DNA from: Gemmatimonadaceae bacterium
Lineage (GTDB): Bacteria; Gemmatimonadota; Gemmatimonadetes; Gemmatimonadales; Gemmatimonadaceae
Direction of reading: 5' to 3'
Assembly: GCA_025928335.1 (NCBI GenBank)
Contig: JAICJQ010000016.1
Span: 1-37,557 of the forward strand
DNA length: 37,557 bases
A model generated the notes under the pieces. It did no database searches and was not told the DNA's origin. It saw only the letters and a list, made by a program, of their open reading frames with translations. The position numbers and the translations under genes are program-made. Below, piece by piece: positions 9,487 to 36,587 of the stretch (positions within the stretch are counted from its first letter, which is position 1; each line of letters begins with the position of its first letter).

Positions 9487-12400
9487 GTGCGCCTCTCCCC
9501 CCTCTTTCCCGGCGTTGGCTCGAGAGCCCTGATCGGCGTCGTCGCGGTGCTGACGACCGCGGGAGCTTTGGGCGGGGTTAGGCAGGCCGCGGCGCAGGTG
9601 GTACCGGCACGGGACACGGCGCGGGCAAGGCCCGACACGGGACGCCGGGTCGTCCTGCCCCGGCCGGCTGCCGACAGCGACTCGACCCGCCGACCCGGCA
9701 CATTCGTCGTGCCCGGGCTCGACATTCCCGTCGATTTCAATCTCCGCATCGAAGGAAAAACGGAGCGCGACCGCAACCTCCGCTGCAACTCGCTCGAGGC
9801 GGTGCAGATCAGTGCGCTGTCCGGCTGCAATGCGGGCTTCCTCCCATGGAATCTCGACTTCAAAGGCACCCTCAAGACGGCGGGCGTCATCGGCGATCGC
9901 GTGCACGTGAATGTCGACTACGACATGCAGCGCGAGTTCGACGCCTCGAACACCGTGTCGCTCTACTACGAGGGCGACTCGACTGCCCGCTTCCGACGGG
10001 TGGACCTCGGCAACATCGCCTTTGTCGCTCCGGCCTCGCGATTCATGACGTCTTCGTTGCCCAGCGGCAACTACGGCATGCAGGTCACGAATCAGTTCGG
10101 CTCTCTCAAGCTGCGATCGATCTTCGCCCGCCAGACGGGAAACGTCGTCCAAAATCGCGAATTCCGCCTCGGCGGACGCGTCGCGCAGACAAACGAGCAG
10201 GAGATCGCCGACTACCAGATCGAACGGCTGCGCTTCTTCTTCACCCTCGATCCCGCCCTGTTCGGAAGCGCCTATCCGAACATCGACATCCTGAACACGT
10301 TGCAAATGCAGCGGCTCAGCCGGTCGCTGCCGGATACGCTCCGCCCGACGCGCGTTCTTCTCTATCGACTGCAGTTCGGCACACAGCCGCAGAACGCCAA
10401 CGGCCCACGGTTTCGCGTCCGCGGCGGCGCCACGGCGGGGACGCAGACGTACGACCTGTTGCGCGAGGGTGTCGACTACTACATGGACCAGTCGCTCCTC
10501 TGGTTCGCGCTCGTACGCCCCCTGAACGAGACGAACGAGCGGCTCGTCGTCGCGTACAACGTGAAGATCAACGGGCGCGATACGATTTGGACGACGACCG
10601 GCGGGACCCCCGACATTCAGTACATCGCCGCGCACGACCAGGTCGCGAACCTCGTGATGGATCCGAGCGTTGGCCCATCGTCGCCGCAATTCCGCAACGA
10701 GATTCGCGCGGTGTACCGCATCGCCGGCGCCAACCTGGTCCGGCGCTCCGTACAGCTGCGTGTCGTGACGGGCAGCGGTCTGCTGGAGCACCCGGTCGCC
10801 GGCAGCGACGCAACATTCCTCCAGATGTTCGGCCTCGCGCAGCCGACGAGTCCGGCCGAATTCGATTTCGAGAATCGGATATGGCCGCGGCCGAGCGATC
10901 CGGTGTTCGACCTCGGAGCGGGTGCCGCGGACCTGCGGGGTGGGCAATCGCTCGATCTGGCGCACGTGATCAAGGACTACTTCCTCGTCTTTCCATCGCT
11001 GCACCCGTTCAGCGCGCGCAACGCCGGACTCGTCGTACCGGGAAACCCGACGAACGATCCGATTTACACGACGCCCGGCGAGTACATCTACTCGGCGCAG
11101 CATCCGACCACCATCTATCGGCTTCGCTTTCGCTACGAGACCGGCGTCGGTGACGAGGCGGGCGCGCTGAACCTGGGCTCGTCGCAAATGCGGCCCGGCT
11201 CCGAGCGCATTCTGATGGACGGACGGCCCCTCGTGCGAGAGCTCGACTATCGAATCGACTACGACGTCGGCCGGCTCGAGTTTCTGCGTCCCGATACGCT
11301 GTTCCGCTCGGAGCGCCGCGTGCTCGTGAGCTACGAGGAGAACGCGAGCTACGGCGCGTCGCAGACGACGCTCGCCGGACTCGTATCGGAGCTGCCGGTC
11401 TCACACGGCACGCTCACCTTCGCCGCGATCAATCAGTCGCAGTCGACCCCCTTCAACCGCCCGCAACTCGGTCTGCAGAGCAACTCGACGCTGACGACCG
11501 GGGCCACGGCGCAGTTCAGCTGGGACCTTCCGTCGCTCACGCGATTGACGAGTCATTTGCCGTTCGGCGATTCGAAGACGCCGTCGCGACTCTCACTCTT
11601 CGGTGAAGTTGCCAGCAGCCATCCGCAATTCGCGGCACGCAATCAGGGACAAGCCTACGTCGAGACCTTCGACGCCGGCAGCGGGACGACGATCGCACTG
11701 GGCGACCAGGCGTGGTATTGGAGCAGCCTGCCGGCGTACGGCTCGGCACTTCGCAACAAGTTTCCCGGCGCTCTCTTCGAGGAGAGGAATGCGTCGACGC
11801 TCGTCTGGCAGACGAACGTCCAGACGCCGGGCGGCCAGCGACTCACGGTGACGAGAAGCGGGATCGATCCGCTGCTGCGGCTCACCGGCTCAGGCATCGA
11901 GTCGAACGAGCCCGTGTTGTGGCTCACGCTTCTTCCGCTCGACCAGGCCGGCCGATACGACAGAACCTCGAAGCGATATCAGTGGACGGCGGGCTTGCCC
12001 ACGAGTCGCCGGCGCTTTCGCAGCATTCGCACGGTACTCCGACCAGGTGGACTGGATTTGACGCGCGGCGAGCATCTCGAGTTCTGGACGTTGCTCGACA
12101 CGAGCGCCGCCGTTCGTCCGAGAAATCCGACGCTCGTGTTCGACTTCGGCGACGTGTCGGAGAACTCGCTGACTTTTGCGCCGGAAACGCTCACGATCAA
12201 GCGGACGGGAACTGGGGTCGACAGCCTGTTCGGCGGGCGAAAAACCCAGGGGTTTGATCGTCTCGACAGCGAGCGTGATCCCTTTTCACGCGCCTTCAAC
12301 GCCGACGTCAACGACACCGGACTGCCCGGCGACGTCGTCGATACGCTCGTCGTCGTCGACGGCACGACGATTCGGCGCGAGACAAATGTGCGGACCTGTC

Positions 12401-15400
12401 GCGGCGCGCCCGGGGCGCTCGACATCATCGGCGACCCCCGAACCAACTGCACGGTCGCCAACGCGAAGCTCGACGAAGAGGACATCGATCTCGACAACGC
12501 GCTCAACCTCGGCAGCGCCGACCGCGAGCGAGAGCGGTTGCTTCGCTACATCGTCGATCTGAGTCTTCCCACCTACTACAAGCGTGTCGGCAATACCTTC
12601 ACCGACACGCTGTACGTGCAAGGCGTGCCGCGCCCGCGCACTCGACAGTGGGTGCTCGTCAGTGTGCCGTTCGGCACACCAAGCGATTCGCTGAACGACG
12701 TCGATCGACGCAAGCTGCGCGCGTTGCGACTCACCGTCGTCTCCGGCGCCGAGCAGGACCCCGAAGAGCCGACGCAGCTGCCGATCGCCGAGTTGCACGT
12801 GACGGGGTCGCCCTGGCTCGATCGAAGCCCGCAAACCCTCGCCGGCATCGGCGGCCTCCGCCCCGACGGCGGCTTCGTGATCACGTCGACGGTTGGTACC
12901 AATGACTCGAGCGCGGTGCTCGCCTATCAGCCGCCGCCAGGTGTCATCGACGAAGCGAACTTCAAGGGCGCGGAGTTCCAGGCAGGGTTGACCGCGATTA
13001 ACGAATCCTCATTGCGAATTCAGGCGGGCAACCTGCCGCTCTACGATCGCGCCGAAGCGTATTGGCGGTTCCCGACGGGCGCGGAAGACTACCTGTTGTT
13101 CGAGCAGCTTCGCGTGTGGGGGCGAGGGCGCGTGAATCGTTGGGGGCAGCCGGGCGAGTTGGAGATGTACGTCAAGATCGGCCGCGACGAGAACAACTTC
13201 TATTTGTATCGATCGCCCGTGAACGCCGGGCAGACGCAAGCAGCGTGGAGCGACCTCACGATCGACCTGTCGCGCTTCGTCCAGCTGCGCAATCAGATCC
13301 AGCAGGCGTATCTCGCCGGGAAGAAAGAGCTGCTCGCCTGCAGCGGCGCCGACTCGGCGATCATCGCGAAGTCGCCGGTTCCGACTGGCGTGGTTGTCCA
13401 TCGCTTCGCGGCATGCGACAACGGCTACATGGTGTACACCGTCGATCCGGCCGTCACCGCGCCGAATCTGGCCTCGGTGCAGGAGGTCGCGGTCGGCATA
13501 GTGCGAGTCGGAGCGAGCAGTGGCGCGTTCACAATGGCGGGCGACACACTCGAGCTGTGGGTGGACGACATCCGGCTCGACCGCCAGAAGAACAGCACGG
13601 GCTGGGCGGGCCAAATCACCGGCCAGCTCAATCTGGGCGACTTCGCGGACGTGCGCGTCAACGTGAGCAATCGCGATCCGAATTTTCGTCAGCTCGGTGA
13701 GCAGGCGTCCTTTCTCGGACAGCGGACCACGGAGATCGGCGCCACGGTGCGGTTGGATCGCATGCTGCCCGACGCGTTCGGCTTGGCGATGCCGCTCACG
13801 ATCTCGCGGATCTCGCTTGCCAGCGATCCGTTGTATCTGTCGCAGACGGACATCTCCGGTAGCGCGATCGCCGGACTGCGGAAGCCGAAGAACGACATCA
13901 CGACCTACAGTCTCACCATTCGTCGAACTACGCCTTTCTCGAATCCTCTCGTCGGCCCGCTGCTCAACAATCTTTCCGCGACGACGACATACACGAGTGG
14001 TATCGACCGGACGGAATTCCAGGACGGCAAGGCGCACAACTTCGCGTTCTCCCTCGACTATCTGCTCACGAACGACACCGCGCACACCCTCGGTCTCGAT
14101 GCATGGAAGCTTCGCTGGAATCCGACGCAGTTCCGCGTGACGAGCGGCATCGTCCAGGGCAACGACCGACGAACGTCGTTCATCCAACCGTCGGGAGCGG
14201 CGGTGGACGAGCCGTCACTCACGACCGCCTCCACTCGTCTCTGGCGCAACAGCAGCGTCGTCGAGCTGCGTCCAACGACCGGCAGTTCGGTGCGGTGGGA
14301 AGTTCAATCGTTGCGCGATTTCCGAAACTATGGCGACACCGCGTCCGGCCAGACGCTTGTGCCGGGGGGCGAATTGCCGGGTCGCGGATTCGAGCGCGAA
14401 CGGACGATGATCGCCAGCGTGGGCGTCGCCCCGATTTTCTCGAGCTGGTTCCGGCCCCGCGCCGACGTCGAGACGCAGTACAACATGCTACGAGACCCGA
14501 ATGCGGCGTCGTTCTTGTCGCTGCCCGGCGTGATCGGCGTGGACAGTGTGCTCGCGGCGCGTGACAGCGCGAGTCTGTTGCAGCGCGTTCTGCCCCGGCG
14601 CATGACGGCGGCACAAACGGCGAGCGCATCCTCCGCCATCGACGTCGCCGCTCTATCCCGTTATGCCGGCGACTCGAGCGTCTTTCATCGGCTCGCCGCG
14701 CACCTCGCGCCGATCGACGTCTCGATCACACGAAGCCTTCTCTCCGCGCTCGACGCGTCGCCCGTCGACGCACCGCTCGCCTTCCAGCTCGGGGTCGGAG
14801 GCCCGTCGTCCTTCCGTTCGGTCAATGGCATGACCGCGACGACCGCCGGCCAGACCGACATGCTGAGCGCCGCGAGCACGATCATGCTGCCGTTCGGCGG
14901 CGCGCTCGAGAACCGGTATCGGCACACGACGACGAACAACTGGATCGCGCGGCTGGATTCCACGCAGGCCCGCGCGGACGGTGAGCAGACGTACTTCCCC
15001 GATGCACGGCTGCGCTGGTCGTATCATCCGACCGGCCGAACGTTGTCGAGCGTGGAGGCAACCACGGGGTTCACCCACAGCGACGCGACGGTCAGCTTGC
15101 CGAGCCTATCCGACGTGCTCGGCCCCCCGCAAATCAGGCGGAGTCATTCGGAGACGTTTCCGATCGGCGGTTCGATCGCCTGGGGCGGCCGCGCCGGATT
15201 GAGCCTCGGTTCCCGTTTCGCCCACACGAATCGCGTGGACAGCTTGCCCGGCAGCGTCGCGCGCTCGGGCATCGATGAGCTGGGTTTCGATTTCGGCCGC
15301 TCCTTCCACGTGCCGGAGGGCCTGGGCCTCGGTTTGCGTAGCGACGTCCGCACGCGCGCCGGTCTCACGAGAAATCGGCTCACCACCTACATCACCGACC

Positions 15401-15603
15401 CGCTCACCGGGCTCCGCAGTCGCCTCGCCGACAACGGCAAGACGCAGTTCAATCTCACCGCGGACAGCAACGTGAGCGACAACTTGGTTTTGACCCTCCA
15501 GGGCTCGCACATCGTGACCTTCGACAACAACCTCAATCGTCGCTTTCAGCAAACACTGTTTTCGACGATTCTCCAGTTTCAGTTTTTTGGGGTAGGAAAG
15601 TAG
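9487..15603 (+). CDS. sprA: SprA/Sov-like type IX secretion outer-membrane translocon
   Basis: A giant secreted protein of 2038 residues. The signal peptide (about 1-36) ends VRQAAA with Q37 as the predicted first mature residue. Near residues 70-200 is the SprA-type start of the barrel (NVDYDMQREFDASNTVSLYY, then GNIAF and FGSLKLRSIFARQTG). Many alternating beta strands follow, with the middle signature ESSLRIQAGNLPLYDRAEAY and YVKIGRDENNFYLYRSPV, and a C-terminus ending in strands (TILQFQFFGVGK). In Bacteroidota, SprA is the 36-strand channel through which type IX cargo crosses the outer membrane. Flavobacterium SprA is longer (about 2400 residues). The start is GTG 9487 or the adjacent TTG 9484; no clear ribosome-binding site. 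A glutaminyl-cyclase-like gene follows 74 bp downstream. Confidence 0.87.
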   Translation: MRLSPLFPGVGSRALIGVVAVLTTAGALGGVRQAAAQVVPARDTARARPDTGRRVVLPRPAADSDSTRRPGTFVVPGLDIPVDFNLRIEGKTERDRNLRCNSLEAVQISALSGCNAGFLPWNLDFKGTLKTAGVIGDRVHVNVDYDMQREFDASNTVSLYYEGDSTARFRRVDLGNIAFVAPASRFMTSSLPSGNYGMQVTNQFGSLKLRSIFARQTGNVVQNREFRLGGRVAQTNEQEIADYQIERLRFFFTLDPALFGSAYPNIDILNTLQMQRLSRSLPDTLRPTRVLLYRLQFGTQPQNANGPRFRVRGGATAGTQTYDLLREGVDYYMDQSLLWFALVRPLNETNERLVVAYNVKINGRDTIWTTTGGTPDIQYIAAHDQVANLVMDPSVGPSSPQFRNEIRAVYRIAGANLVRRSVQLRVVTGSGLLEHPVAGSDATFLQMFGLAQPTSPAEFDFENRIWPRPSDPVFDLGAGAADLRGGQSLDLAHVIKDYFLVFPSLHPFSARNAGLVVPGNPTNDPIYTTPGEYIYSAQHPTTIYRLRFRYETGVGDEAGALNLGSSQMRPGSERILMDGRPLVRELDYRIDYDVGRLEFLRPDTLFRSERRVLVSYEENASYGASQTTLAGLVSELPVSHGTLTFAAINQSQSTPFNRPQLGLQSNSTLTTGATAQFSWDLPSLTRLTSHLPFGDSKTPSRLSLFGEVASSHPQFAARNQGQAYVETFDAGSGTTIALGDQAWYWSSLPAYGSALRNKFPGALFEERNASTLVWQTNVQTPGGQRLTVTRSGIDPLLRLTGSGIESNEPVLWLTLLPLDQAGRYDRTSKRYQWTAGLPTSRRRFRSIRTVLRPGGLDLTRGEHLEFWTLLDTSAAVRPRNPTLVFDFGDVSENSLTFAPETLTIKRTGTGVDSLFGGRKTQGFDRLDSERDPFSRAFNADVNDTGLPGDVVDTLVVVDGTTIRRETNVRTCRGAPGALDIIGDPRTNCTVANAKLDEEDIDLDNALNLGSADRERERLLRYIVDLSLPTYYKRVGNTFTDTLYVQGVPRPRTRQWVLVSVPFGTPSDSLNDVDRRKLRALRLTVVSGAEQDPEEPTQLPIAELHVTGSPWLDRSPQTLAGIGGLRPDGGFVITSTVGTNDSSAVLAYQPPPGVIDEANFKGAEFQAGLTAINESSLRIQAGNLPLYDRAEAYWRFPTGAEDYLLFEQLRVWGRGRVNRWGQPGELEMYVKIGRDENNFYLYRSPVNAGQTQAAWSDLTIDLSRFVQLRNQIQQAYLAGKKELLACSGADSAIIAKSPVPTGVVVHRFAACDNGYMVYTVDPAVTAPNLASVQEVAVGIVRVGASSGAFTMAGDTLELWVDDIRLDRQKNSTGWAGQITGQLNLGDFADVRVNVSNRDPNFRQLGEQASFLGQRTTEIGATVRLDRMLPDAFGLAMPLTISRISLASDPLYLSQTDISGSAIAGLRKPKNDITTYSLTIRRTTPFSNPLVGPLLNNLSATTTYTSGIDRTEFQDGKAHNFAFSLDYLLTNDTAHTLGLDAWKLRWNPTQFRVTSGIVQGNDRRTSFIQPSGAAVDEPSLTTASTRLWRNSSVVELRPTTGSSVRWEVQSLRDFRNYGDTASGQTLVPGGELPGRGFERERTMIASVGVAPIFSSWFRPRADVETQYNMLRDPNAASFLSLPGVIGVDSVLAARDSASLLQRVLPRRMTAAQTASASSAIDVAALSRYAGDSSVFHRLAAHLAPIDVSITRSLLSALDASPVDAPLAFQLGVGGPSSFRSVNGMTATTAGQTDMLSAASTIMLPFGGALENRYRHTTTNNWIARLDSTQARADGEQTYFPDARLRWSYHPTGRTLSSVEATTGFTHSDATVSLPSLSDVLGPPQIRRSHSETFPIGGSIAWGGRAGLSLGSRFAHTNRVDSLPGSVARSGIDELGFDFGRSFHVPEGLGLGLRSDVRTRAGLTRNRLTTYITDPLTGLRSRLADNGKTQFNLTADSNVSDNLVLTLQGSHIVTFDNNLNRRFQQTLFSTILQFQFFGVGK

Positions 15604-15677
15604 CGCGGCTCGCCGACTCGCAGTGGCATTTGACCAACTCCGCTAACGTTCAGTCTATTCACCGAAGAGAACTTTCC

Positions 15678-16643
15678 GTGCGAATGCCGATCCTCCTCTG
15701 CGCGCTCGTAGCCCTCACTGCTTGCGGCGACCTGAAGAGCCGCTTCTCGAAGCCGAAGACCGGTTTCGACGGCCAGGCGGCGCTCGGTTACGTGCAGCAG
15801 CACCTGGCGTTCGGTCCGCGGACGCCAGGCACGCCGGCGCATGACAGCGCGGCGAATTGGATCATCGCCGAGATGAAAAAGCGCACGGACAGTGTGTGGG
15901 TTCAGCGTTGGACCCAGACGACGCCGGAAGGGAACACGCTTCCGCTGACAAATGTGCTAGCGCGCTTCAACCCGACGGCAACGCAGCGGGTGCTGTACAT
16001 CACGCATTGGGACACTCGCCCCAAAGCCGACGACGATCCGAATTTCGGAAACCGCGCGCGCCCCATCATCGGCGCGAACGATGGTGCGTCGGGCGTCGGC
16101 CTCTTCATGGCACTTGGCGACGTGTTCAAGAAAACGCCGCCGTCGGTCGGGGTCGATCTCTTATTCGTCGACGGTGAGGACTGGGGCAACTTCGACGCCG
16201 ACCAGAGCGGCGCGTACCCCGACGCGCTCTTCGGCTCGCAGTACTTCGCCGCAAATCCACCAACGCCGGATTACAAGCCGCTCTATGGCGTGCTGTTCGA
16301 CATGATCGGCGACGCCGATTTACAGATCTATCAAGAAGCCAACTCGGTGCAGAAGGCGCCGGAAGTCGTGCGCCGCGTCTGGGACACGGCAGCGGAGCTG
16401 GGGTACGGGAGCATCTTCCGCAATCAGGTCGGCCTCGCCATCACCGACGACCACGTGCCCTTCCTCAACAAAGGCTTCCACGTCATCGACGTGATCGATC
16501 TGCAGTACGGACCGGTCGCGCAGAATGACCCGTTCGCCAACGCCAATCCGAACTACCACCACACGATGGAAGACACGATCGACAAATTGTCGGCGAAGAG
16601 CCTGCAGACGATCGGCGACGTGGCGGTGACGCTGGTGAAATAA
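15678..16643 (+). CDS. Glutaminyl-cyclase-like M28-fold lipoprotein
   Basis: A 321-residue zinc-enzyme homologue with a lipobox (LTAC, Cys16), so probably a periplasm-facing lipoprotein. The fold is M28, but the motifs match glutaminyl-peptide cyclotransferases better than peptidases: THWDTRP (109-115), GANDGASGVG (D135, zinc), FVDGEDWG (E167/D168, catalytic/zinc), ALFGSQYF (183-190), LFDMIGD (D208) and ITDDHVPFLNKG (H259, zinc). The SLYGS-like and DDHxPFL stretches are QC hallmarks. Such enzymes turn N-terminal Gln into pyroglutamate. I chose the GTG at 15678, 7 bp after GAAGAGA; an ATG at 15684 is possible, and the in-frame 15630 start would bury the signal sequence. It follows sprA on the same strand. 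An aminopeptidase role cannot be excluded. Confidence 0.82.
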   Translation: MRMPILLCALVALTACGDLKSRFSKPKTGFDGQAALGYVQQHLAFGPRTPGTPAHDSAANWIIAEMKKRTDSVWVQRWTQTTPEGNTLPLTNVLARFNPTATQRVLYITHWDTRPKADDDPNFGNRARPIIGANDGASGVGLFMALGDVFKKTPPSVGVDLLFVDGEDWGNFDADQSGAYPDALFGSQYFAANPPTPDYKPLYGVLFDMIGDADLQIYQEANSVQKAPEVVRRVWDTAAELGYGSIFRNQVGLAITDDHVPFLNKGFHVIDVIDLQYGPVAQNDPFANANPNYHHTMEDTIDKLSAKSLQTIGDVAVTLVK

Positions 16644-16650
16644 TCGCGGG

Positions 16651-17769
16651 TCAGCGGCTGCCGCGCAGCCAGATCACGTAGTACGGGGGATGCTCGAGAA
16701 GGCTCTGCGCGCGACAGGCAGGATCCCGCATCTTGTCGGAGACGGTCCCGGTGACCTCGGTGCCAGGCGGGTACACCTCGAGCATCTCGACTTGCGCGGC
16801 GCTGAAGCTCCTCAGCGGTTGGTGCAGCTGCGTCTTGCCGTCGAGCAAGATGCAGTCGTCGCCGAAGGATGTTCGGGGCGCCGGCTCTCCCGGACCGAGC
16901 AGCCGGGGAACCTGCTTTGCCTGCATCATCCGCTCGGCGACCGCGATCGCGCCCGCTCCGCCCAGGCCGACGAGCGCCTGATCCAATCCCATGGTACCGA
17001 GCGGCTCGAGTCGATCGCGGCCCGCGACCACCGTCTTGAAGCTCTGCCAACGGAGCCGCTTGTCGAGATCCTCGAGCGCATGGTCATCCGGCGCGTAGCC
17101 GCTCCGCGCCGCGATGGTCATTGCGTCGAGCTTCACCGGCAAGGCTCGCAGCTTGATGATGACTTCGCGGTCGTCGTGGTCGACGAGATTCAGCGTCATG
17201 TTCGTCGGAGCGTACCCCAACTTCCGGACGCGAATCAGGTACTGCCCAACCGGCAATGGCCTGAAGAGGAAGCCGCCGTTCGGTCGGGTGACACCGACGC
17301 GATTGGCGCCGACCAACTGGACCTCTGCCTCGTCGACCGCCGTTCCGGCTGAATCGATCACCAGACCGAGAATCGACGACGTCCCTTTGAGTCGGCGATC
17401 CTCTTCGGCGCGCACGACCACCGGATCCAGCGTCCGCGGAATCGCGTGGAGGACAACGGTGACCTCCGTTCGCTGGTCAGGCCGCGCCTCCCAGTTGTAG
17501 TCCACGCTCCGATAGCCGAGGCGCCGGAACCACACCTGGTAGGCGCCGGGCGCGATATCGCGTAGCGTGAATTCGCCGCGCGCGTTGGTGCGAGTTCCTT
17601 GCGTCAGCTCACGCACCACGACTTCGGCGTCGGCGATTGGTGCTCCGGTCGAGTCGCGTACGACGCCGGCGATTGTCGCTGGCAGCAGCGCCGGAGGCGC
17701 CGGATTCTGGCCGGCCGCGCCTCTCGCGGTAGCGACGGCGATAACCAGCGCAACCAGCGGACGTCTCAT
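16651..17769 (-). CDS. Secreted protein: two carboxypeptidase-regulatory-like domains plus TonB-plug-like domain
   Basis: A 372-residue exported protein with signal peptide (1-20, ending RGAAG, then Q21). Two immunoglobulin-like CarboxypepD_reg domains follow at about 30-110 (IAGVVRDSTGAPIADAEVVV) and 120-205 (ILGLVIDSAGTAVDEAEVQL), each with the GxYxVxxRxLGY-type strand. The C-terminal part (about 225-372) contains CILLDGKTQ and FSAAQVEMLEVYPPG, which resembles the plug of SusC-like receptors (LLVVDGV ... IESVEVVKG) but there is no barrel after it. It is the second gene of a two-gene operon, starting 2 bp after the S8 peptidase stop, and converges on the QC-like gene with a 7-bp gap. No enzymatic residues are visible; function unknown, perhaps a periplasmic or surface partner of the peptidase. 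Confidence 0.8.
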   Translation of the reverse strand: MRRPLVALVIAVATARGAAGQNPAPPALLPATIAGVVRDSTGAPIADAEVVVRELTQGTRTNARGEFTLRDIAPGAYQVWFRRLGYRSVDYNWEARPDQRTEVTVVLHAIPRTLDPVVVRAEEDRRLKGTSSILGLVIDSAGTAVDEAEVQLVGANRVGVTRPNGGFLFRPLPVGQYLIRVRKLGYAPTNMTLNLVDHDDREVIIKLRALPVKLDAMTIAARSGYAPDDHALEDLDKRLRWQSFKTVVAGRDRLEPLGTMGLDQALVGLGGAGAIAVAERMMQAKQVPRLLGPGEPAPRTSFGDDCILLDGKTQLHQPLRSFSAAQVEMLEVYPPGTEVTGTVSDKMRDPACRAQSLLEHPPYYVIWLRGSR

Positions 17770-17771
17770 CG

Positions 17772-19472: not shown

Positions 19473-19505
19473 GGACGATCCTGTGGTGAGGGCTCAATAA
19501 CGATA

Positions 19506-19526
19506 ACCGCCCTCAACTGAGGCGGT
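19506..19526. promoter_or_regulatory. Inverted repeat upstream of the S8 peptidase gene
   Basis: ACCGCC and GGCGGT flank TCAACTGA-like sequence (ACCGCC-CTCAACTGA-GGCGGT), a 6-bp perfect outer stem 34 bp before the start codon. It could be an operator or an mRNA leader hairpin. Nothing else in 19527-19691 looks like a gene. Confidence 0.3.
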
Positions 19527-19609
19527 CAGCGTGCCTTACTGCTTACTTACGAAGGCCAACTGCAAGTCACCGGCCGAGTCCGTGACCGATTGGTGCGGAT
19601 CCCGCCAGT

Positions 19610-19622
19610 GGGGTCAGACTCC
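19610..19622. repeat. Imperfect palindrome GGGGTCAGACTCC, REP-like
   Basis: GGGGTC-A-GACTCC is a near-palindrome with one G-T mismatch, in non-coding DNA between the S8 peptidase and the helix-hairpin-helix gene. Sequences of the type GGGGTCAGACCCC recur as repetitive extragenic palindromes near REP-associated transposases in many bacteria (from memory). Only one copy was noticed here, so this is tentative. Confidence 0.3.
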
Positions 19623-19691
19623 GAATTGGTTGTGGTACGGTCTGCGATGAAATGGTGATGGCGCCGAATGGAAGGCGGGTAGCTTCGGCCC

Positions 19692-20252
19692 ATGTCACTT
19701 CGTGCTGATCAGAAAGCGCTCGTGTTCTTCGGGGCGGTGGCAGTGCTCGGAGCGGGCGTTCGCGTAGTGCGCGCCGCCGGCGCTCCCGTCTCGAGCGCGT
19801 CGCAGCCTGCCCTCGACCGGCAGATCCAATCGTCCGATTCCGCGCGAGTCTTCCAATCAGGGGGGCGACGGAAAACCGGCCGCTCGACGACCGGGCGAAA
19901 AGCCAATCGATCCGCGGCCGCCGCCGCGATTGACACAGGCCAACGGCGGCGGCCCGCCGGTCCGCTGGATCGTCGAGGATACGTCGGGGACCGTTTGGAC
20001 TTGGACATCGCGACCGCGGCGCAAATCGATTCACTCCCGGGTGTGACGCCGCTCATGGCTCGGCGAATCGTCGCGGATCGCATGGCTCGCGGGCCATTCA
20101 CGACGGTCGATGGGCTTCGTCGGGTGATCGGCGTCGGGCCGGGCTTTCTCAAGCGCATCGACACGTTGATCACCTTCTCCGGTACGTTCCTTCAGTCGAG
20201 CGCATCGGACACCATCATCCCGAAGCGGCGCAAAGGCCGCGGCGGCAGGTAG
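19692..20252 (+). CDS. Membrane-anchored ComEA-like helix-hairpin-helix protein
   Basis: A 186-residue protein with an N-terminal hydrophobic anchor (about 9-30), a Ser/Arg/Gln/Gly-rich linker (about 31-98) and a C-terminal pair of helix-hairpin-helix motifs: LDIATAAQIDSLPGVTPLMA (104-123) and VIGVGPGFLKRID (145-157). The layout matches ComEA, the periplasmic DNA receptor of natural transformation, where an anchor and flexible linker hold the double-stranded-DNA-binding domain. Similar domains occur in other small proteins, so a transformation role is inference. No comEC or other competence gene is in the window, but pilB and pilT (also used in DNA uptake) lie about 15 kb away. It converges with the next gene with a 7-bp gap. 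Confidence 0.75.
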   Translation: MSLRADQKALVFFGAVAVLGAGVRVVRAAGAPVSSASQPALDRQIQSSDSARVFQSGGRRKTGRSTTGRKANRSAAAAAIDTGQRRRPAGPLDRRGYVGDRLDLDIATAAQIDSLPGVTPLMARRIVADRMARGPFTTVDGLRRVIGVGPGFLKRIDTLITFSGTFLQSSASDTIIPKRRKGRGGR

Positions 20253-20259
20253 CAGAGCG

Positions 20260-20907: not shown

Positions 20908-21036
20908 GGTGCCCTCCCTGAACGTTGCCGAAAACCTCGCGTGGGGTGGAAGGCCGAGCCTTCCCGAACTGTCCGCGCGCGTATTTCTTGAAACGCGATT
21001 CCTGAACCCATCGGCCCGATTGACAATTTGATTCGA

Positions 21037-23336: not shown

Positions 23337-23541
23337 TCAACGGGCGCGGATGACTGCGAAATGGATGACGCGTCAATCTTTCGCGCAAGCTTCGCGTTCG
23401 TTCGGAAATTCGCTCCTTCCGCCGTTGAAAAATCGCGTGTAGGTTCGCCGCGAAGTCACCTCGCTTCCCACCCGCGTCGTTGTCTCCAAGCGCTTCAGCG
23501 CGTGGAAGCTCCGGCGCACACCCGGCGGAGGTCCGACGCTA
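23337..23541. other. Non-coding gap between serB and the first SusC gene
   Basis: 205 bp with no convincing gene. A GGAGG at 23527-23531, 10 bp before the SusC ATG, is a good ribosome-binding site. No clear promoter was recognised. Confidence 0.6.
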
Positions 23542-26500
23542 ATGAACGGCGCACGTGTCTTGTCACGCGCCTCGTCCGCCACGACGAAGGCGCTTCTCAT
23601 CCTCGCGACGACGGTCGTCGTCGCTCGCGCTCAGACGGGGCGGATTACTGGAGCGGTATCTGATTCCGCCGCTGGGTTCCCGATCCCCGGTGTGAGCGTC
23701 ACGATCGTTGGCTCGAACGCCGCCGCGGTCAGCACGAACGAAGGCCGGTACGTGCTCACGTTGCAGCCCGGCACCTACACCGTCGAAGCTCGTCGCCTCG
23801 GCTACATCGCCGGACGGCGCACGGGTATCGTGGTGACGTCCGGACAACCGACGACACTCGATTTCAAGCTCCAGGCGACGGCGCTTCATCTCGAGGAAAC
23901 AGTCATCACGGGCGTCGTCGACCCGACGGCGGGCACCAAGGTCCCGTTCACCGTCGGGCGCGTTACGCAGGAAGACATTCCGGTACCGCCCCTCAACGCG
24001 ATCGCCTCGATCGAGGGAAAAGTTGCCGGCGTTACGGTTCTCTCACCCGCGCAACCCGGCGACGGCGTCGATATCCAACTGCGCACGCCGAGCAGCATCA
24101 GCAAGAGCAACTCGCCGCTGCTCGTCGTCGACGGCGTCATTCTGTCCGCGAGCTCGGCGGATCTTAATTCTCTCGACATCGAGAGTGTTGAAGTCGTGAA
24201 GGGCGCGGCGGCGGCGTCGCTGTACGGATCGCGCGCCGCGAGCGGCGTCATTCAGATCAAGACGGCGCGCGGCAACGGACTATCGCTTGGCCAGACGCAG
24301 TTCACGGTTCGCTCGGAGCTCGGCGGCAGTTCATTGGATTACGACATGCCGCGTGCGCAATACCACTTCTATCTCACGAACGCTCAGGGACAGTACGTCG
24401 ACGCGACCGGCAAGGTCCTGACGCGCGACACTCGCGTTGCGCGTCCGGCAGCCGAGCGCTTCCAGGACGTGCCGTACATCGTCCCAATCTTCAATCCGGT
24501 GAACGAGCTCTTTCATCCCGGCAACATGAGCACGAACTCGGTCTCGATCGCGCAGAACGGCGAGAAGACCAACTTCCTCACGACGCTGTCGCATCAACGA
24601 CAGGACGGCGTGTTGCGCGATCACGGCGGGTACGATCGAACGGACGTGCGCATCAATCTCGATCATCGACCGCGCGACGATATGCAGTTTTCGATCAGCG
24701 GCTACCACGCGCGCTCGAACCGCGAGGAACTGGACGGGAACACCTTCTTCTGGCTCACGTCGATGGCGCCCGATGTCGACATGCTTCAGAAGGACCCCGA
24801 CGGGACGAAGTACATCTTCCAGCCGGATCCGCTCGGCGTTCACCCAAGCCCGCTCTATACCGCTGAAGCGCAGAAGAGCAACACGCAGCGCATCCGAACG
24901 CTCGGGTCGATGGATTTCCGCTATACGCCGCTCACCTGGTTGTCGGCCGACGCGAACGCCAGCTACGACCGCTCTGACGCGAACGGGTCGACGTGGCTGG
25001 ATCGCGGACTCAAGTCCGAGGCGCAGGCGTTGGGTGGGCCGGGCTCGCTGACCCTGACCGACGCGTACACCAGCGCGCTCAACGCCTCGGGGAGCGTGAG
25101 TCTGCTCAAGGATTTCAGGAACCTCACGGGCCGTACGACCGCCCGCGTCCTGATCGAAAAGCAAACGTCCGAGAGTCAGGAGGCGGACGGGACGAACTTC
25201 GCAGTGAGCGGTGTTCCACGCATCGACGCCGCGCTCTCGCGCAATAGCTCGTCGTCGCAGACGGACATTCGCGCCGAGGGCTACTTCCTCACCGCGGGCC
25301 TGGACTACAGCAGCAAATACATCGCCGACGCGCTCGTGCGCCGCGACGCCAGCTCGCTCTTCGGTCCTGGCGAGCAGTGGCACACCTACTATCGCGCCAG
25401 CGGCGCGTATCGTATGGCACAAGAAAACTGGTGGCCGTTCAAGCGTGTGAACGAATTCAAGCTGCGTCTCTCGCAAGGAACCGCGGGCACGCGGCCGTCG
25501 TTCGCCGACCAGTTCGAGACGTACACTGTGAGCTCCAACGGCACGCTCGCCAAGTCGACGCTCGGCAACCGATTCCTCAAGCCCGAGACGGCGCGTGAGC
25601 GTGAGTACGGCCTCGACATGGTCGTCGACAACCGGTTCTCGCTGCAGCTCTCGCGCGCCGACAATCGGACCACCGACGAGCTCGTGCAAGTCCCGCTACC
25701 GGGCGCGATCGGGTTCACGACGCAGTGGCAGAACGCCGGTACGGTTGTTGGATCGACCCTCGAGGCGACATTCGAAGCGCAGATGTTCCGCCGCGGCTCC
25801 ACGACCTGGCGGCTCGGAGTCACCGCCGATCGCTCGCGGCATCACATCAGCGAGTACGGACGGGCGTGCGTGCGCACGGCGACGATTTCGTATCGCTGCG
25901 TCGGCGAAGATCTCAGCACGATGTACGGCAACGCATTCGTGCATTCCCTCTCGCAACTGCCCGCGGCGCAGAAGGGCCACGAGTCGGCGTTCGAGGTCAA
26001 TGACGACGGGTTGGTCGTCGCCGTCGGCGATGGCAGCCACTGGTACAACCGCAACAGCTGCGGCGCGTCGCATACGTCGGCGTGCTGGGGGACTACCGTC
26101 GCGAGCAACGGCGTGAACTACGCGTGGGGGATGCCGATCATTCTGCTCGACTCGACCGGGCAGCAAGCGGTCGTCAAGATCGGGAGCGGCAACCCGCGCT
26201 TTCACTACGGCGTCTCGAACAGCGTACAGTGGCGCGGCTTCCAGTTCTATGGTTTGCTCGACACGCAACTCGGCGGCGACGTCTACGATCAGAACCACCA
26301 GCGTAGCATGCAGTACAACCGGACGGCCGAGACGGATCAATTCGGGAAACCCGACTCGCTCAAGAAGACCGTCGACTATTACGCGCTCATCTACAACGGC
26401 AACGCGATCGAAGATTGGTTCGTCGAGCCGGGCGGTTTCGTGAAGATCCGTGAAATGTCGGTCCGATATCAGTTGCCGCAGCGACTGCTCTCGCGCCTGC

Positions 26501-26670
26501 CCGGCCGCCGCGGCATGGGCGCATCGATCTCTGTCGTCGGCCGCAACCTGAAGACTTGGACGAACTACAAGGGCTACGATCCGGAGGTGGGTACCGTCAC
26601 CAACCGGCTCGACAGCTACGACTATCCGCGATACCGCAATTTCAGCGGTGTCCTCCAAATCCAATTCTGA
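23542..26670 (+). CDS. SusC/RagA-type TonB-linked outer-membrane receptor
   Basis: A 1042-residue outer-membrane transporter. The signal peptide ends VVVARA, with Q31 first in the mature protein. A CarboxypepD_reg domain (about 34-115, GRITGAVSDSAAGFPIPGVS) precedes the plug (about 120-235), with LLVVDGVILS and LDIESVEVVKGAAAASLYGS, typical of SusC. A 22-strand barrel follows and ends in an aromatic (SGVLQIQF). GGAGG lies 10 bp before the ATG. A SusD-like lipoprotein gene follows after 14 bp, the usual bipartite pump with SusD as lid. No glycoside hydrolase or peptidase is adjacent, so the ligand (glycan, peptide or other) cannot be inferred. Confidence 0.93.
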   Translation: MNGARVLSRASSATTKALLILATTVVVARAQTGRITGAVSDSAAGFPIPGVSVTIVGSNAAAVSTNEGRYVLTLQPGTYTVEARRLGYIAGRRTGIVVTSGQPTTLDFKLQATALHLEETVITGVVDPTAGTKVPFTVGRVTQEDIPVPPLNAIASIEGKVAGVTVLSPAQPGDGVDIQLRTPSSISKSNSPLLVVDGVILSASSADLNSLDIESVEVVKGAAAASLYGSRAASGVIQIKTARGNGLSLGQTQFTVRSELGGSSLDYDMPRAQYHFYLTNAQGQYVDATGKVLTRDTRVARPAAERFQDVPYIVPIFNPVNELFHPGNMSTNSVSIAQNGEKTNFLTTLSHQRQDGVLRDHGGYDRTDVRINLDHRPRDDMQFSISGYHARSNREELDGNTFFWLTSMAPDVDMLQKDPDGTKYIFQPDPLGVHPSPLYTAEAQKSNTQRIRTLGSMDFRYTPLTWLSADANASYDRSDANGSTWLDRGLKSEAQALGGPGSLTLTDAYTSALNASGSVSLLKDFRNLTGRTTARVLIEKQTSESQEADGTNFAVSGVPRIDAALSRNSSSSQTDIRAEGYFLTAGLDYSSKYIADALVRRDASSLFGPGEQWHTYYRASGAYRMAQENWWPFKRVNEFKLRLSQGTAGTRPSFADQFETYTVSSNGTLAKSTLGNRFLKPETAREREYGLDMVVDNRFSLQLSRADNRTTDELVQVPLPGAIGFTTQWQNAGTVVGSTLEATFEAQMFRRGSTTWRLGVTADRSRHHISEYGRACVRTATISYRCVGEDLSTMYGNAFVHSLSQLPAAQKGHESAFEVNDDGLVVAVGDGSHWYNRNSCGASHTSACWGTTVASNGVNYAWGMPIILLDSTGQQAVVKIGSGNPRFHYGVSNSVQWRGFQFYGLLDTQLGGDVYDQNHQRSMQYNRTAETDQFGKPDSLKKTVDYYALIYNGNAIEDWFVEPGGFVKIREMSVRYQLPQRLLSRLPGRRGMGASISVVGRNLKTWTNYKGYDPEVGTVTNRLDSYDYPRYRNFSGVLQIQF

Positions 26671-26684
26671 CGGTGGAGCATCCG

Positions 26685-28316: not shown

Positions 28317-28341
28317 CGGTCAGCCCGACGCCGGGTGTCGT

Positions 28342-29487: not shown

Positions 29488-29493
29488 CGGCCC

Positions 29494-31059
29494 TCACCAC
29501 CCCGGATTCTGCTGCAGCAGCTTGTTCAGGTCGATCGCCCGCTGCGGAATTGGCATGAGCTTGTACTTGTCGGGGATCGGCGAGTTGTTCGCCTTCGGGA
29601 ACTTGCTACTGGTCGATTTTGCGTGCTTCATGCTCGCTTCGATGCGCGCTTTTGCCCAGTTCCAGTTGCGCTGACTGTCGAAGTAGCCGTTCGGGCCCTC
29701 GAGCGACAATTCCCACCGCCGCTCATTGAACACGGAATCGCGGAAGAGATCGTGGTTCAGCCCGGGCGTCATGTTCGGGATTCCGGCCCGCGCGCGAACG
29801 GCGTTGACCGCGGCGTATGCTTCCGGCGTCGGACCGTTGCTTACCTCGTTCGCCGATTCAGCGATCATCAGCAACACTTCCGCGTAGCGCAGCATGATGT
29901 AGTTCGGCTCCTCGGCGCCGGTGCCGGTCATCTGAATATCGAGGAACTTGCGGGGGAATGGCGTCTCGCTCGCGTAGGGCTGCGAAGCAGTCTGCGCCTC
30001 GTTCCACGTCACGTTCGTGCCACCCTTGTTCCAGGTGAAGATGAACGTGCCGTCGCGCCGCTTATCGTCGGCGCGGAAGGTGTGAAACCAGATGCTTTCG
30101 GCCTCGAACGAGCCGTTTGTCGAAGCGCCAAGAAAAGGAGCCGTGTTGGTCGGCGCCATGTGCGACGAGATGCGGCCGCCAAGGCCCGGCGCGCGGATGT
30201 TCTCGACGGCGAAGATCACTTCGCTGTTGCGCTCGTTCACCGTGCCGCCGAAGAAGTCGAACAGCGACTTGTAGTCGCTGACAAGCGCGTAGTCGCCGTC
30301 GCTTTGGACCTGCTTCGCCATGGCAAGCGCATTCTGCCAATCCGCGGCGGTGCCGACGCCCGTACCGGCGCGCTGCAGGTACATCTTCGCGAGCAGCGTC
30401 TTCGCCGCGCCGCGCGATGCACGGCCCTGATCCGATCCCGTGTACGATTTCGACGGCGGCAAGACCGTGATCGCATCCTTCAGGTCCTGTTCGATCAGCG
30501 TGTACACCTCGGCTGCGGTGTTGCGCGGGATGGAAAGACTATCGAGCCCTTGCGTTTCGTGCACCTTGACCGGCACGCCACCGAACATGCGCACCAGATT
30601 GAAGTAATGCGTGGCGCGGAGGAACTTTGCTTCGCCCACGATACGCTTGCGCAGAGTCGTGTCCATGTCGATCGCCGGCACGTGGTCGAGAACCGAGTTG
30701 GCACGGTTGATCGCGTCGTACGCCGATGCCCAGACGGATTGCACGTAGGCGTGATTGACGGGAATCGCATACACGTCGGGCTGGCTGCGCTCATTCGTCG
30801 CCGACAGGCGCGAGGTCCACATCTCCGTCGGATGCTCGACGAGCATGACGAAGTTGCGGCCATAGTAATTGTCGCCGGTGCTGTTGATGAAATCCGCGTA
30901 CACCCCGTTCACCGCGGCGAGTGCGTCACCGGCATTCTTATAGAAATTGGCCGGTCCGATGAAATCGAATGGCTGTTCCGTCAGAAACTGTTTGTCGTTG
31001 CATGCCAGCGCCACGGAGACCGCTCCGAGCGAGGCGAGGAAGCGAATTCGATTGCGCAT
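29494..31059 (-). CDS. SusD/RagB-like surface lipoprotein (second pair)
   Basis: A 521-residue lipoprotein; lipobox VALAC at Cys20 (MRNRIRFLASLGAVSVALAC). The mature start NDKQFLTEQPFDFIGPANFY and GDALAAVNGVYADF are classical SusD N-terminal features. TPR-like repeats include KFLRATHYFNLVRMFGGVPV, a strong family signature (YFNLVRxFGxVP), and the C-terminal part has YIMLRYAEVLLMIAESANEV and RRWELSLEGPNGYF. A GAGGAAA ribosome-binding site lies 7 bp before the ATG. It is downstream of its SusC partner on the minus strand, with a 15-bp gap, and converges on the SoxC-like gene with only 6 bp between stops. Confidence 0.93.
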   Translation of the reverse strand: MRNRIRFLASLGAVSVALACNDKQFLTEQPFDFIGPANFYKNAGDALAAVNGVYADFINSTGDNYYGRNFVMLVEHPTEMWTSRLSATNERSQPDVYAIPVNHAYVQSVWASAYDAINRANSVLDHVPAIDMDTTLRKRIVGEAKFLRATHYFNLVRMFGGVPVKVHETQGLDSLSIPRNTAAEVYTLIEQDLKDAITVLPPSKSYTGSDQGRASRGAAKTLLAKMYLQRAGTGVGTAADWQNALAMAKQVQSDGDYALVSDYKSLFDFFGGTVNERNSEVIFAVENIRAPGLGGRISSHMAPTNTAPFLGASTNGSFEAESIWFHTFRADDKRRDGTFIFTWNKGGTNVTWNEAQTASQPYASETPFPRKFLDIQMTGTGAEEPNYIMLRYAEVLLMIAESANEVSNGPTPEAYAAVNAVRARAGIPNMTPGLNHDLFRDSVFNERRWELSLEGPNGYFDSQRNWNWAKARIEASMKHAKSTSSKFPKANNSPIPDKYKLMPIPQRAIDLNKLLQQNPGW

Positions 31060-31074
31060 GTCTCGTTTCCTCGC

Positions 31075-34000
31075 TCAGTAGGAGAGGTTGATGCCGAGCG
31101 TGATGCTCTTGGCGAGGGGATACTGCCCGACATCGATGCCCCGGTTCACGTTCCCGATGCCGAGGCTGCTCACGTCGGGATTGAACCCGCTGTAGTGCGT
31201 CCATGTCACGAGGTTGGTTCCGGTCACGTACAGCCGCGTGTTCGAGATCCCGTAACGCGCCAGCAACCGATCGGGGAGTCCCATGTCCAGCGTCACCGAG
31301 CGAAGACGCAGATACGATCCGTCCTCGAGCAAATCGCTCGTGATGTCAGAGCCGATCGTCTCGGGCGTGAAGTTCACGCGCGGAAATTCGGCGCCGGTGT
31401 TCGACGGCGTCCACGCGTCGAGATAGCGGTCGGCGATGATGTTCGTGCCCGGACTACCCTGCTCGAGACGGACGTTGTTGAGGTTCAGGATCTTGTTGCC
31501 ATACACACCGTCCAGCAGCGACGAGAGACGGAACGCACCGAGCGTAAACGTGTTCTGCCAACCGCCACTGAACTTCGGATTCGGATCGCCGATGATGGTG
31601 CGATCGTTCGCGTCGATCTTGCCGTCAGGCGGCGTGAGGCGACCGAGCGAGTCCAGCGGACCCGAGATGTCGATCAGCTTTACGTCGCCCGCCTTCCAGG
31701 ACGTGCCCGTGAGCGGCTTCACCGCGGCGGTGTAGGCCGCGGCCGTCGCTGAATCACGGAGAATGCCGGCGGCCTTGTAGCCGAAGAAGACGCCGAGCGG
31801 CTGGCCGACCTGAATCAGTGAACCGCCGAGCTTCAGGTCACTGTTCACGCTCGACGCGAAGATCGACTGAACGCCGCCGAGATCCAGCACCGTGTTCTTG
31901 TTGTGCGAATAGCTGAGCGTCGAAGACCAACCGAGCGAGTTGGTGCGCTTTGCGTCGAGAATCGTGAGGGTGAGCGCCAGCTCGTACCCGTTGTTGCGAA
32001 CGGCACCGATGTTCTGCAGCGCCGTGCCGAAGCCACTCTCGAACGGCAGGTTCACCGCGAGAAGAAGGTCGGAGGTCTTCTTGCGATACACATCGCCGGT
32101 GAAGCTCACTCGTCCGCCGAACAGTCCCAGGTCGACTCCCACATCGGTCTGGCGCGTCGTCTCCCAGCCCAACTCTGGATTGCCGATCGCCGCCGGGTAA
32201 TAGCCTGGTACAACGGTGCCCCCGAAGGTGTATGGCTGCGACAGGAGGTGGGACATCGATTGATACGGCCGAATCGAGGGGTTGCCCGCCAGACCGTACG
32301 ACGCGCGGAACTTGAGGAGCTCAACCTTCGGGTACTTCGCCATGAACGGTTCGTCCGACACGCGCCACCCGAACGCGGCCGAAGGGAAGAAGCCCCATTG
32401 ATGATCGGCGCCGAAGCGCGATGAGCCGTCTTCGCGCCCGGTGACGGTGAACAAGTACCGATTGGCCAGCGTGTAATTCACGCGGCCGAGATATGACGCG
32501 AGCGTCCATCGCGTGTGGCCCGATCCGACTTGCGGCCCACTCGCCTGCGTGCCGGCGCCGATGTTCTCGAACACGTCGATGTCACTGACGAAATTGCTGT
32601 TCTGGATGAAGCTCGATGTCAGATCGCTCTGCTGCCGGGTATAGCCGGCCACCGCGTCGACCAGGTGTTCGCTGCCGAACGAACGGTTGTACGACAGCGT
32701 GTTCTCGTTCAGAAAATTCGTCGTCTCGGTGCGCCCGCGCTTCGCGTAGCCGTTCGTCTGCGAACCCATGAGCGTCGTGCGCGGGTAATAGGTGTCACGC
32801 CCGCGGTTCGAGATGTCGCTGCCGAGACTGATGCGCGCCTTGAGGCCCTGGAAGAACTCGTATTCACCGAAGGCGTTGGCGAGGACGCGCGTGTCGTTCA
32901 GCTTGTCCGTCACGTCGGCCGCCATCGACACCGGATTCGGGATGTTCGTCGGCGCGAGGACTGAAGACGGACTGTTCTGCCCCATCAGCGTGTAGGTCCC
33001 GTTCGGCTGGCGTACCGGCAGGATCGGGTAATAGTCGATCGCCGCGCCGACCGCGCCGGCACCGGCGTTGAGCGAACCATCTGTCGGCACCGAGTTGCTG
33101 TTGACGCGGGCGAGCATGATCGTGCTCGCGAGGCGCGCCTTGCTCCCGATCGACTGATCGAGGTTACCGCGCAAGGAGAGTCGCCGGAACGCCGAATTGA
33201 TCACGACGCCTTGCTGCTGAAAGATGCCGCCCGACAGCGCGTAGCGCGTCGCGTTGGCTCCCGCGCCGCCGCCATTCACGCCGACTTGAAGATTGGAGAG
33301 CGGTGCGCTGCGGAAGATGAGCGACTGCCAATCGGTGTTCGGCAGCGTGTCCGGGTTTGCGAACACGACGCCGGTGCCGTTGTTCTGCGACCAGGTGTTC
33401 ACGAACTGCGCGAACTGCTGCGCGTTGAGCAGATCGTAGCGATGCGCCACGCTCTGTGTTCCACTATAGGTGTCGAGTGTAAAGCGCGGCCGCGCCGACT
33501 GGCCATGCTTCGTCGTGATGATGATGACGCCGTTCGCGCCGCGTGCCCCGTAGATCGACGTCGCCGAGGCGTCCTTGAGAATCTCGATCGACTCGATGTC
33601 GTTCGGATTGAGCGCGGCGAGCGGGTTCGACGGAACCGTCGTCGTATTATCTCGGCCCCCGTCGCTCGGATTCTGCGCATCGGGATCGTTCTCGATCGGG
33701 AAACCGTCGATCACGTACAGCGGTTCGTTGTTGCCGGTGACCGAGGACCCTCCGCGCACGCGGATCGAGAGCGCCGCGCCTGGCGCCGACGACGCCTGCG
33801 TCACCATCACGCCCGCCGCCGCACCTTGAAGCGCCTGCTCGAGCGAGAGGATCGGCGTCTGCTCGACGTTCGGCGTCACCGATGTCACGGCGCCGGTGAG
33901 GTCCGATCGTCGCTGCGTGCCATACCCGACGACCACCATCTGGTCGAGAGTCACCGACACCGCGGACAGCGCGATGTTGACGGTCGCGGTCTGTCCGACG

Positions 34001-34308
34001 CTGACCGTGACTTGCTGGTCCACCGGCGCATAGCCGATGCGTGCCACGTGCACTCGGCGCGCACCGGATGGAACCTCGGCGATCGTGTATCGACCGTCGG
34101 TCCCGGTCCTTGCCGCGAGCGTCGTCCCGGTAACCGTTACGTTGACGTTGGGGATGGGAGCGCCGGCCGTGCGGTCGGTGACTGTGCCGGTGATTCTTCC
34201 CGTGCCGGTTTGTTGGGCGCCGGCGGCGTTGACGGTCGCCCCGAACAGGGTGGCGACGGTGAGGCGCGTCAGGGCTCGCATCGTGGTCGAGCGGCGCGTC
34301 CGGGTCAT
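31075..34308 (-). CDS. SusC/RagA-type TonB-linked outer-membrane receptor (second pair)
   Basis: A 1077-residue receptor from the chosen ATG at 34308, which has a strong AAAGGAG ribosome-binding site 8 bp before it; a longer in-frame reading to 34431 has none. The signal peptide ends NAAGA with Q32 first in the mature protein. Next come a CarboxypepD_reg domain (about 38-115), a Ton-box-like MVVVGYGTQRRSDLTG (about 123-138) and the SusC plug with EPLYVIDGFPIEND and IESIEILKDASATSIYGARG. A barrel follows with the usual C-terminal aromatic (TLGINLSY). The plug and barrel look like the standard Bacteroidota SusC, closer to type than the first receptor in the window. Ligand unknown; no degradative enzymes nearby. 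Confidence 0.94.
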   Translation of the reverse strand: MTRTRRSTTMRALTRLTVATLFGATVNAAGAQQTGTGRITGTVTDRTAGAPIPNVNVTVTGTTLAARTGTDGRYTIAEVPSGARRVHVARIGYAPVDQQVTVSVGQTATVNIALSAVSVTLDQMVVVGYGTQRRSDLTGAVTSVTPNVEQTPILSLEQALQGAAAGVMVTQASSAPGAALSIRVRGGSSVTGNNEPLYVIDGFPIENDPDAQNPSDGGRDNTTTVPSNPLAALNPNDIESIEILKDASATSIYGARGANGVIIITTKHGQSARPRFTLDTYSGTQSVAHRYDLLNAQQFAQFVNTWSQNNGTGVVFANPDTLPNTDWQSLIFRSAPLSNLQVGVNGGGAGANATRYALSGGIFQQQGVVINSAFRRLSLRGNLDQSIGSKARLASTIMLARVNSNSVPTDGSLNAGAGAVGAAIDYYPILPVRQPNGTYTLMGQNSPSSVLAPTNIPNPVSMAADVTDKLNDTRVLANAFGEYEFFQGLKARISLGSDISNRGRDTYYPRTTLMGSQTNGYAKRGRTETTNFLNENTLSYNRSFGSEHLVDAVAGYTRQQSDLTSSFIQNSNFVSDIDVFENIGAGTQASGPQVGSGHTRWTLASYLGRVNYTLANRYLFTVTGREDGSSRFGADHQWGFFPSAAFGWRVSDEPFMAKYPKVELLKFRASYGLAGNPSIRPYQSMSHLLSQPYTFGGTVVPGYYPAAIGNPELGWETTRQTDVGVDLGLFGGRVSFTGDVYRKKTSDLLLAVNLPFESGFGTALQNIGAVRNNGYELALTLTILDAKRTNSLGWSSTLSYSHNKNTVLDLGGVQSIFASSVNSDLKLGGSLIQVGQPLGVFFGYKAAGILRDSATAAAYTAAVKPLTGTSWKAGDVKLIDISGPLDSLGRLTPPDGKIDANDRTIIGDPNPKFSGGWQNTFTLGAFRLSSLLDGVYGNKILNLNNVRLEQGSPGTNIIADRYLDAWTPSNTGAEFPRVNFTPETIGSDITSDLLEDGSYLRLRSVTLDMGLPDRLLARYGISNTRLYVTGTNLVTWTHYSGFNPDVSSLGIGNVNRGIDVGQYPLAKSITLGINLSY

Positions 34309-34619: not shown

Positions 34620-34652
34620 ACGTCCAGCCCTCCGCCTTTCGACCCGGCAGTC

Positions 34653-36500: not shown

Positions 36501-36521
36501 AGCCGGCGACGGACGACGGCG

Positions 36522-36545: not shown

Positions 36546-36587
36546 GCCAATCATTGACCGAACGCCGTCACCACTCGTCCAACTATC

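Follow-up and report, generated by a model that had tools for sequence, protein, structure and literature searches.

Glutamine at the predicted mature N-terminus of exported proteins and candidate glutaminyl cyclases in Gemmatimonadota

The genome of this Gemmatimonadaceae bacterium follows, with a probability of roughly 0.8, a Q-rule of the Bacteroidetes kind, and the glutaminyl cyclase (QC) of the analysed stretch of 37,557 nucleotides (the window), representing the usual type II in the phylum, would then cap the exposed Gln. Signal peptidase I would cut most exported non-lipidated proteins just before Gln, a membrane-anchored and periplasm-facing QC would convert this Gln to pyroglutamate, and pyroglutamate would block the N-terminus against aminopeptidases. 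Across the phylum this role would usually fall to the window's type II enzyme, often encoded close behind sprA, and in some lineages to a type I enzyme instead. The sequences display the Gln enrichment, the enzyme families, most of the active-site residues, the lipoboxes and a complementary distribution of the two cyclase types; cyclisation, its location in the cell and its protective role we infer. For P. gingivalis, in which the enzyme is indispensable, a protective role has been published (PMC10653852, partial text).

The original prediction was based on five window proteins with Gln at the likely +1 position, and all five N-termini were read in the sequence as it described them (Table 1). 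Signal peptides were called by using a home-made caller, which searches for a positively charged n-region followed by a hydrophobic core and a cleavage site of the A-x-A type, credits no +1 residue, Gln included, and bars Pro at +1. Its cuts for OmpA, OmpC and LamB of E. coli agreed by eye with the known sites, and that for MalE was placed two residues early. The caller agreed with the described cuts in three window proteins (both SusC receptors and the small protein, in which one further TM segment was called), placed that of the plug-like protein five residues earlier (ATA/RGAAGQ) and made no call for SprA, the gene start of which had been placed downstream. The small protein was without any Pfam or NCBIfam match. 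The helix-hairpin-helix protein at 19692, which had been suggested as a possible exception, does possess a hydrophobic N-terminus; it was not scored as a signal peptide by the caller. The second SusC shared 71% and 78% identity with genes of two Gemmatimonadetes records (L156 and L158, respectively) and about 40% identity with SusC of Chitinophaga and Flavihumibacter, and its score against the SusC model was far above that of the first SusC.

Table 1. Features of the window and the type I cyclase of the same genome. A slash marks the predicted cut.
Feature	Coordinates	Strand	N-terminus	Basis
sprA (T9SS outer-membrane translocon)	9487..15603	+		TIGR04189 530 bits, cut-off 200; translation
SprA signal peptide	9487-9594	+	GTG start at 9487; AAA/Q37, Gln37 codon 9595-9597	translation
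Type II (animal-like, M28) glutaminyl cyclase homologue P0002, predicted lipoprotein	15678..16643	+	LTA/C16	PF04389; PDB matches
Plug-like protein	16651..17769	-	start 17769; AAG/Q21, Gln codon 17709-17707	ORF and N-terminus
SusC/RagA TonB-linked receptor (first SusC)	23542..26670	+	ARA/Q31, Gln codon 23632-23634	TIGR04056 441.7 bits; caller
SusC/RagA TonB-linked receptor (second SusC)	31075..34308	-	start 34308; AGA/Q32, Gln codon 34215-34213	TIGR04056 794.8 bits; caller
Predicted lipoprotein adjoining second SusC	29494..31059	-	ALA/C	signal peptidase II class, outside the Q-rule
Small protein, COX2-like in the original prediction	2677..2928	-	start 2928; AAA/Q21, Gln codon 2868-2866	translation; caller
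Type I (plant-type) QC of own genome, L059	G000:C8:32782-33459			PF05096; solved type I QCs matched at 2.6e-54 (PDB entries of this type: 3mbr, 3nol)

For the genome as a whole (a 4.52 Mb draft, 79% complete, with the window as contig C44), the sample comprised 31 of the 281 contigs, some in part, with 437,933 bases and 359 called genes. The count excluded 13 lipoproteins as well as 23 candidates in which additional TM segments were called (Gln in 4 of the 23). Among the 45 non-lipoprotein signal peptidase I candidates without a later TM segment, Gln was at the strict +1 position in 21 and at any acceptable site in 29, some false calls among the 45 being suspected. The Gln background was 3.7%, against which 21/45 gave a binomial value of 1e-18, and Gln at each of the offsets from -6 to -1 and from +2 to +12 was found in 0-5 of the 45; a +1 frequency no higher than background, which would have spoken against the prediction, was thus not observed. 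In 12 of the other 24 candidates an A-x-A-type motif before Gln lay near the chosen cut, and several of the 24 look non-exported by eye. The predicted enrichment was therefore borne out, whereas the wording that all signal peptidase I substrates start with Gln did not hold genome-wide, Gln being reached in 29/45 even at any site. When the Q-rule is understood as Gln at +1 in most substrates, the genome follows it, with the strict share just below half and the any-site share just below two thirds.

The same caller was run on E. coli K-12 (250 kb; strict 1/19, any site 3/19) and on S. meliloti pSymB, a replicon of high GC (250 kb; strict 2/20, any site 3/20). Pooled as negative controls, they gave 3/39 and 6/39, respectively, and the difference of the own genome from them was significant at 8e-5 for strict and 6e-6 for any-site counts by Fisher's test. 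Bacteroidota (69 loci, 1.48 Mb around SusC genes) gave 119/188 and 139/188. The +1 Gln of the own genome is therefore far above the background and the two negative controls, and near the Bacteroidota level; the mean share in published Bacteroidetes Q-rule data is 71% (PMC5837995, partial text).

These counts depend on a caller that was adjusted once, after its output for the own genome had been seen. The first version cut too early, and the adjustment shifted the distance prior, excluded Pro from +1, and introduced a term for residues +2 to +6, an upstream Pro/Gly bonus and a looser candidate cut-off. The own genome, G019, G058, G075, G013 and the first samples of G034, G035, G009, G089, G093, G096 and G120 are not wholly independent of this adjustment; E. 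coli, pSymB, Bacteroidota, the named Gemmatimonadota and G073 were run for the first time after it, and the caller has been unchanged since. Such a history, together with the many candidate sites per protein, could be taken to mean that Ala-rich c-regions in a high-GC genome give A-x-A/Q by chance or that the caller is bent towards Gln, and at any acceptable site Ala was indeed found in 16 of the 45 proteins, Gly in 11, Arg in 11, Thr in 7, Leu in 6 and Val in 3. However, we regard an artefact as extremely improbable: at the same sites Asp and Asn were found in 2 each and Glu, Lys and Ser in 1 each, against 29 for Gln; the same loose count gave only 3/20 in pSymB; and the unadjusted caller had already placed Gln at +1 in 12/44 (18/44 at any site).

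Gln at +1 was also frequent in other members of the phylum. Strict and any-site counts were 12/23 and 19/23 in G075, 10/14 and 11/14 in G034, 13/31 and 22/31 in G035, 7/10 and 8/10 in G073 (which has no sprA match), 12/22 and 16/22 in ten named Gemmatimonadota loci centred on SusC genes, and 6/14 and 9/14 in the pooled small samples of G009, G089, G093, G096 and G120. Low strict values were obtained for G019 (7/23; any site 15/23), G058 (3/13; any site 9/13) and G013 (4/19 by both counts), many of the calls in G013 resembling pilins or membrane proteins by eye. The sum for Gemmatimonadota, including the own genome, was 95/214 strict and 142/214 at any site, versus the pooled negative controls given above.

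The QC-like gene of the window starts 74 bases past the end of sprA. Its best solved relatives are 6qro (1.7e-60) and five further bacteroidal PDB entries; 6qro, 6qql and 7cje carry the name glutamine cyclotransferase in the PDB, and 3tc8 and 4fuu (deposited as aminopeptidases) as well as 3gux are handled as QCs in PMC7948796 (partial text). A profile from 22 Gemmatimonadota homologues (A1) matched the six bacteroidal entries at 1e-83 to 1e-78, followed by 7d1b (Leucine aminopeptidase by name) at 3.2e-56 and 7d18 (Peptidase M28) at 2.2e-44, then by the YwaD-type aminopeptidase 6hc6 at 6.9e-18 and by animal QCs from 1e-17. D135, E167, D168, D208, H295 and the lipobox C16 were invariant in 22/22 homologues. 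According to our own reading of the HMMER alignments, with residue roles from the literature, D135, D168 and H295 correspond to the zinc ligands PgAsp149, Asp183 and His299, and E167 and D208 to the catalytic HsGlu201 and HsAsp248, D168 being the Asp typical of the bacteroidal enzymes in place of HsGlu202. The pocket Trp (PgTrp298/HsTrp329) is His294 in the window QC; the Trp is kept in 2/22 relatives, and His at this position was also found in the Bacteroidota homologues L255, L256, L259 and L261 (at least 4/10). The loops around the counterparts of PgPhe294 and PgTrp193 align poorly. A lack of cyclase residues, which would have undermined the prediction, was thus not found: the catalytic and zinc residues are kept and one pocket residue differs.

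In a quick tree, 35 Gemmatimonadota QCs formed one group (support 84) and 10 Bacteroidota QCs another (82), and both groups stood together, apart from five M28 peptidases of the own genome (SH-aLRT 100); the tree omits two Bacteroidota rows, and nine of the 14 remaining M28 loci of the own genome, in which the motif was not found. The window QC grouped with the QCs of the L156 and L158 genomes (support 99); together with the SusC identities, this assigns the window to Gemmatimonadota and probably to Gemmatimonadaceae. In sequence, the window protein resembles known QCs more than it does M28 aminopeptidases, with 7d1b and 7d18, peptidases by name, in between. It shares with PgQC and TfQC (PMC7948796; 6qro, 6qql) the M28 family, the Asp/Asp/His zinc ligands, the catalytic Glu and the lipobox, but differs from them in its separate tree group, in the His for PgTrp298 and in the pairing of its gene with sprA.

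The own genome has homologues of both QC types, which have unrelated folds (PMC7948796, partial text). Its type I gene lies elsewhere, outside the window; the protein has a possible lipobox by eye and, also by eye, Q, E, N and K at the presumed key places of the papaya enzyme. Among 121 Gemmatimonadota genomes, 71 had type II only, 29 type I only, 14 both and 7 neither, so that at least one type was detected in 114/121; these counts exclude five weak matches, three to type II and two to type I. One of the five (G071:C55:2-148) is part of a type II QC truncated by the end of its contig, and G071 probably has both types rather than type I only. Independence would give 23 genomes with neither type and 30 with both, as compared with the observed 7 and 14 (Fisher 3e-11 by genome, kinship ignored); by genus, there were 11 with both, 39 with type II only, 8 with type I only and 5 with neither (p = 0.014). 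For Bacteroidetes species, 574 with the animal-type QC, 507 with the plant-type and 63 with both have been reported (PMC5837995, partial text). This complementary distribution appears to be the strongest indication of cyclase activity in the M28 protein, because an unrelated enzyme of the same activity seems to stand in for it.

Seven genomes had neither type, and two of them, G034 and G035, follow the Q-rule with the counts given above. A search with profile A1 for a divergent type II QC gave no match in G034, G035, G089 and G009 and only weak M28-type matches in G093, G096 and G120. The M28 loci of G034, G035, G096 and G149 were also considered as QCs; 25 were fetched, motifs were readable in 14, and these resemble other M28 peptidases. 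In G035 a helix-hairpin-helix gene directly follows sprA with no QC between, and in G034 the contig ends just past sprA. The 'neither' assemblies were 84-96% complete, and incompleteness may explain part of the seven; it explains less easily three genomes of one genus (95, 91 and 73% complete). It is conceivable, though we hold it doubtful, that the Q-rule is kept in genera g42 and g43 in the absence of either known QC, be it through a third, unrecognised cyclase or through a rule imposed by signal peptidase itself. Genomes in which no QC was detected are candidates for the search for a new cyclase.

Those two rule-keeping genomes speak for a different reading, in which +1 Gln is a signal peptidase I preference of the phylum or a relic of one, the M28 protein acts as an aminopeptidase, and Gln cyclises non-enzymatically or not at all. 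The unconserved pocket Trp of the window enzyme would agree with it, and the intact active sites of animal-type homologues fit either activity (PMC5837995, partial text). We nevertheless consider it unlikely, since profile A1 scores the bacteroidal QCs far above 6hc6 and nearly every genome of the phylum (114/121) has at least one QC. Enzymatic capping by a QC remains the preferred reading. The own genome also has 32 places with M28-family matches, which would fit heavy secreted aminopeptidase activity, and aminopeptidase pressure is plausible there because of them.

Within the phylum, 89/121 genomes had a sprA match, which exceeded the cut-off in 87, and the window itself encodes the SprA/Sov translocon of type IX secretion (Table 1). 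Of 30 Gemmatimonadota QC loci, 21 had the end of sprA in the 1.5 kb preceding the QC, and the same order was seen in 5/5 loci from named genomes, at least two of these five being near-copies of loci in the first set. According to the listed coordinates, in which the sprA position of G011 is not included, 44 of the 64 genomes with both genes had sprA upstream on the same strand, at a distance of 0.9-3.6 kb between the profile matches; with G083 and G113 (split sprA or unlisted position), where the sprA end is also beside the QC, the pairing is present in at least 46/64. It was seen in families f1, f2, f3, f4 and f8 and was unseen in ten f5 and four f9 genomes, the genes being on different contigs in 12 of these 14. 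No sprA was found within the 1.5 kb flanks of the 12 PF05096 loci fetched (one a weak match). None of 12 Bacteroidota type II loci showed the pairing with the window SprA as query, by which distant ones could be missed.

The adjacency of a QC-like gene to sprA, as originally predicted, is thus common in the phylum, and both its frequency and its absence from the Bacteroidota loci speak for a QC that serves type IX secretion by acting on T9SS cargo or on SprA itself. We judge such a role decidedly unlikely, and the proposed link to type IX secretion was not upheld: 21 genomes have a type II QC and no sprA match, +1 Gln is found also on TonB receptors, and the f5 and f9 genomes lack a visible pairing. 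G073 is among the 21 and has +1 Gln in 7/10, and therefore type IX secretion seems not to be required for the Q-rule. Published work speaks against the idea that cyclisation contributes to type IX targeting, with RgpA as the named exception (PMC5837995, partial text). The T9SS was restricted to Bacteroidetes according to a 2016 report (PMC4793230, partial text) and is possibly present in Gemmatimonadetes according to a 2024 one (PMC11285876, partial text). In G035 (L335, G035:C7:141001-147000), sprA and the helix-hairpin-helix gene are followed, by eye, by a pilus-type ATPase and membrane genes; the window has its helix-hairpin-helix gene (19692-20252) 3 kb past the QC and ATPase-like genes further on (34638-37556). 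A link between the surroundings of sprA and pilus genes is possible.

With the Q-rule of Bacteroidetes (Bochtler et al. 2018, PMC5837995, partial text) the Gemmatimonadota share Gln at +1 in most signal peptidase I substrates, a QC that is a predicted lipoprotein, and animal- and plant-type QCs that seldom occur together; they differ in that the QC is often beside sprA and that two rule-following genomes are without a detected QC. In the available text of that paper the Q-rule is described as typical of Bacteroidetes and not of related phyla, with scattered high values (e.g. Ignavibacterium album, 77%), and the name Gemmatimonadota does not occur. To explain the lack of the Q-rule in other phyla, the heavy proteolysis around Bacteroidetes cells has been invoked (PMC10653852, partial text). 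No report of a Q-rule in Gemmatimonadota was found in a literature search that was thin in subscription papers. A Q-rule across a second phylum, with two unrelated cyclases replacing one another, would be older or more mobile than thought and would not hang on type IX secretion, and it would be of practical use in the prediction of mature N-termini of Gemmatimonadota proteins.
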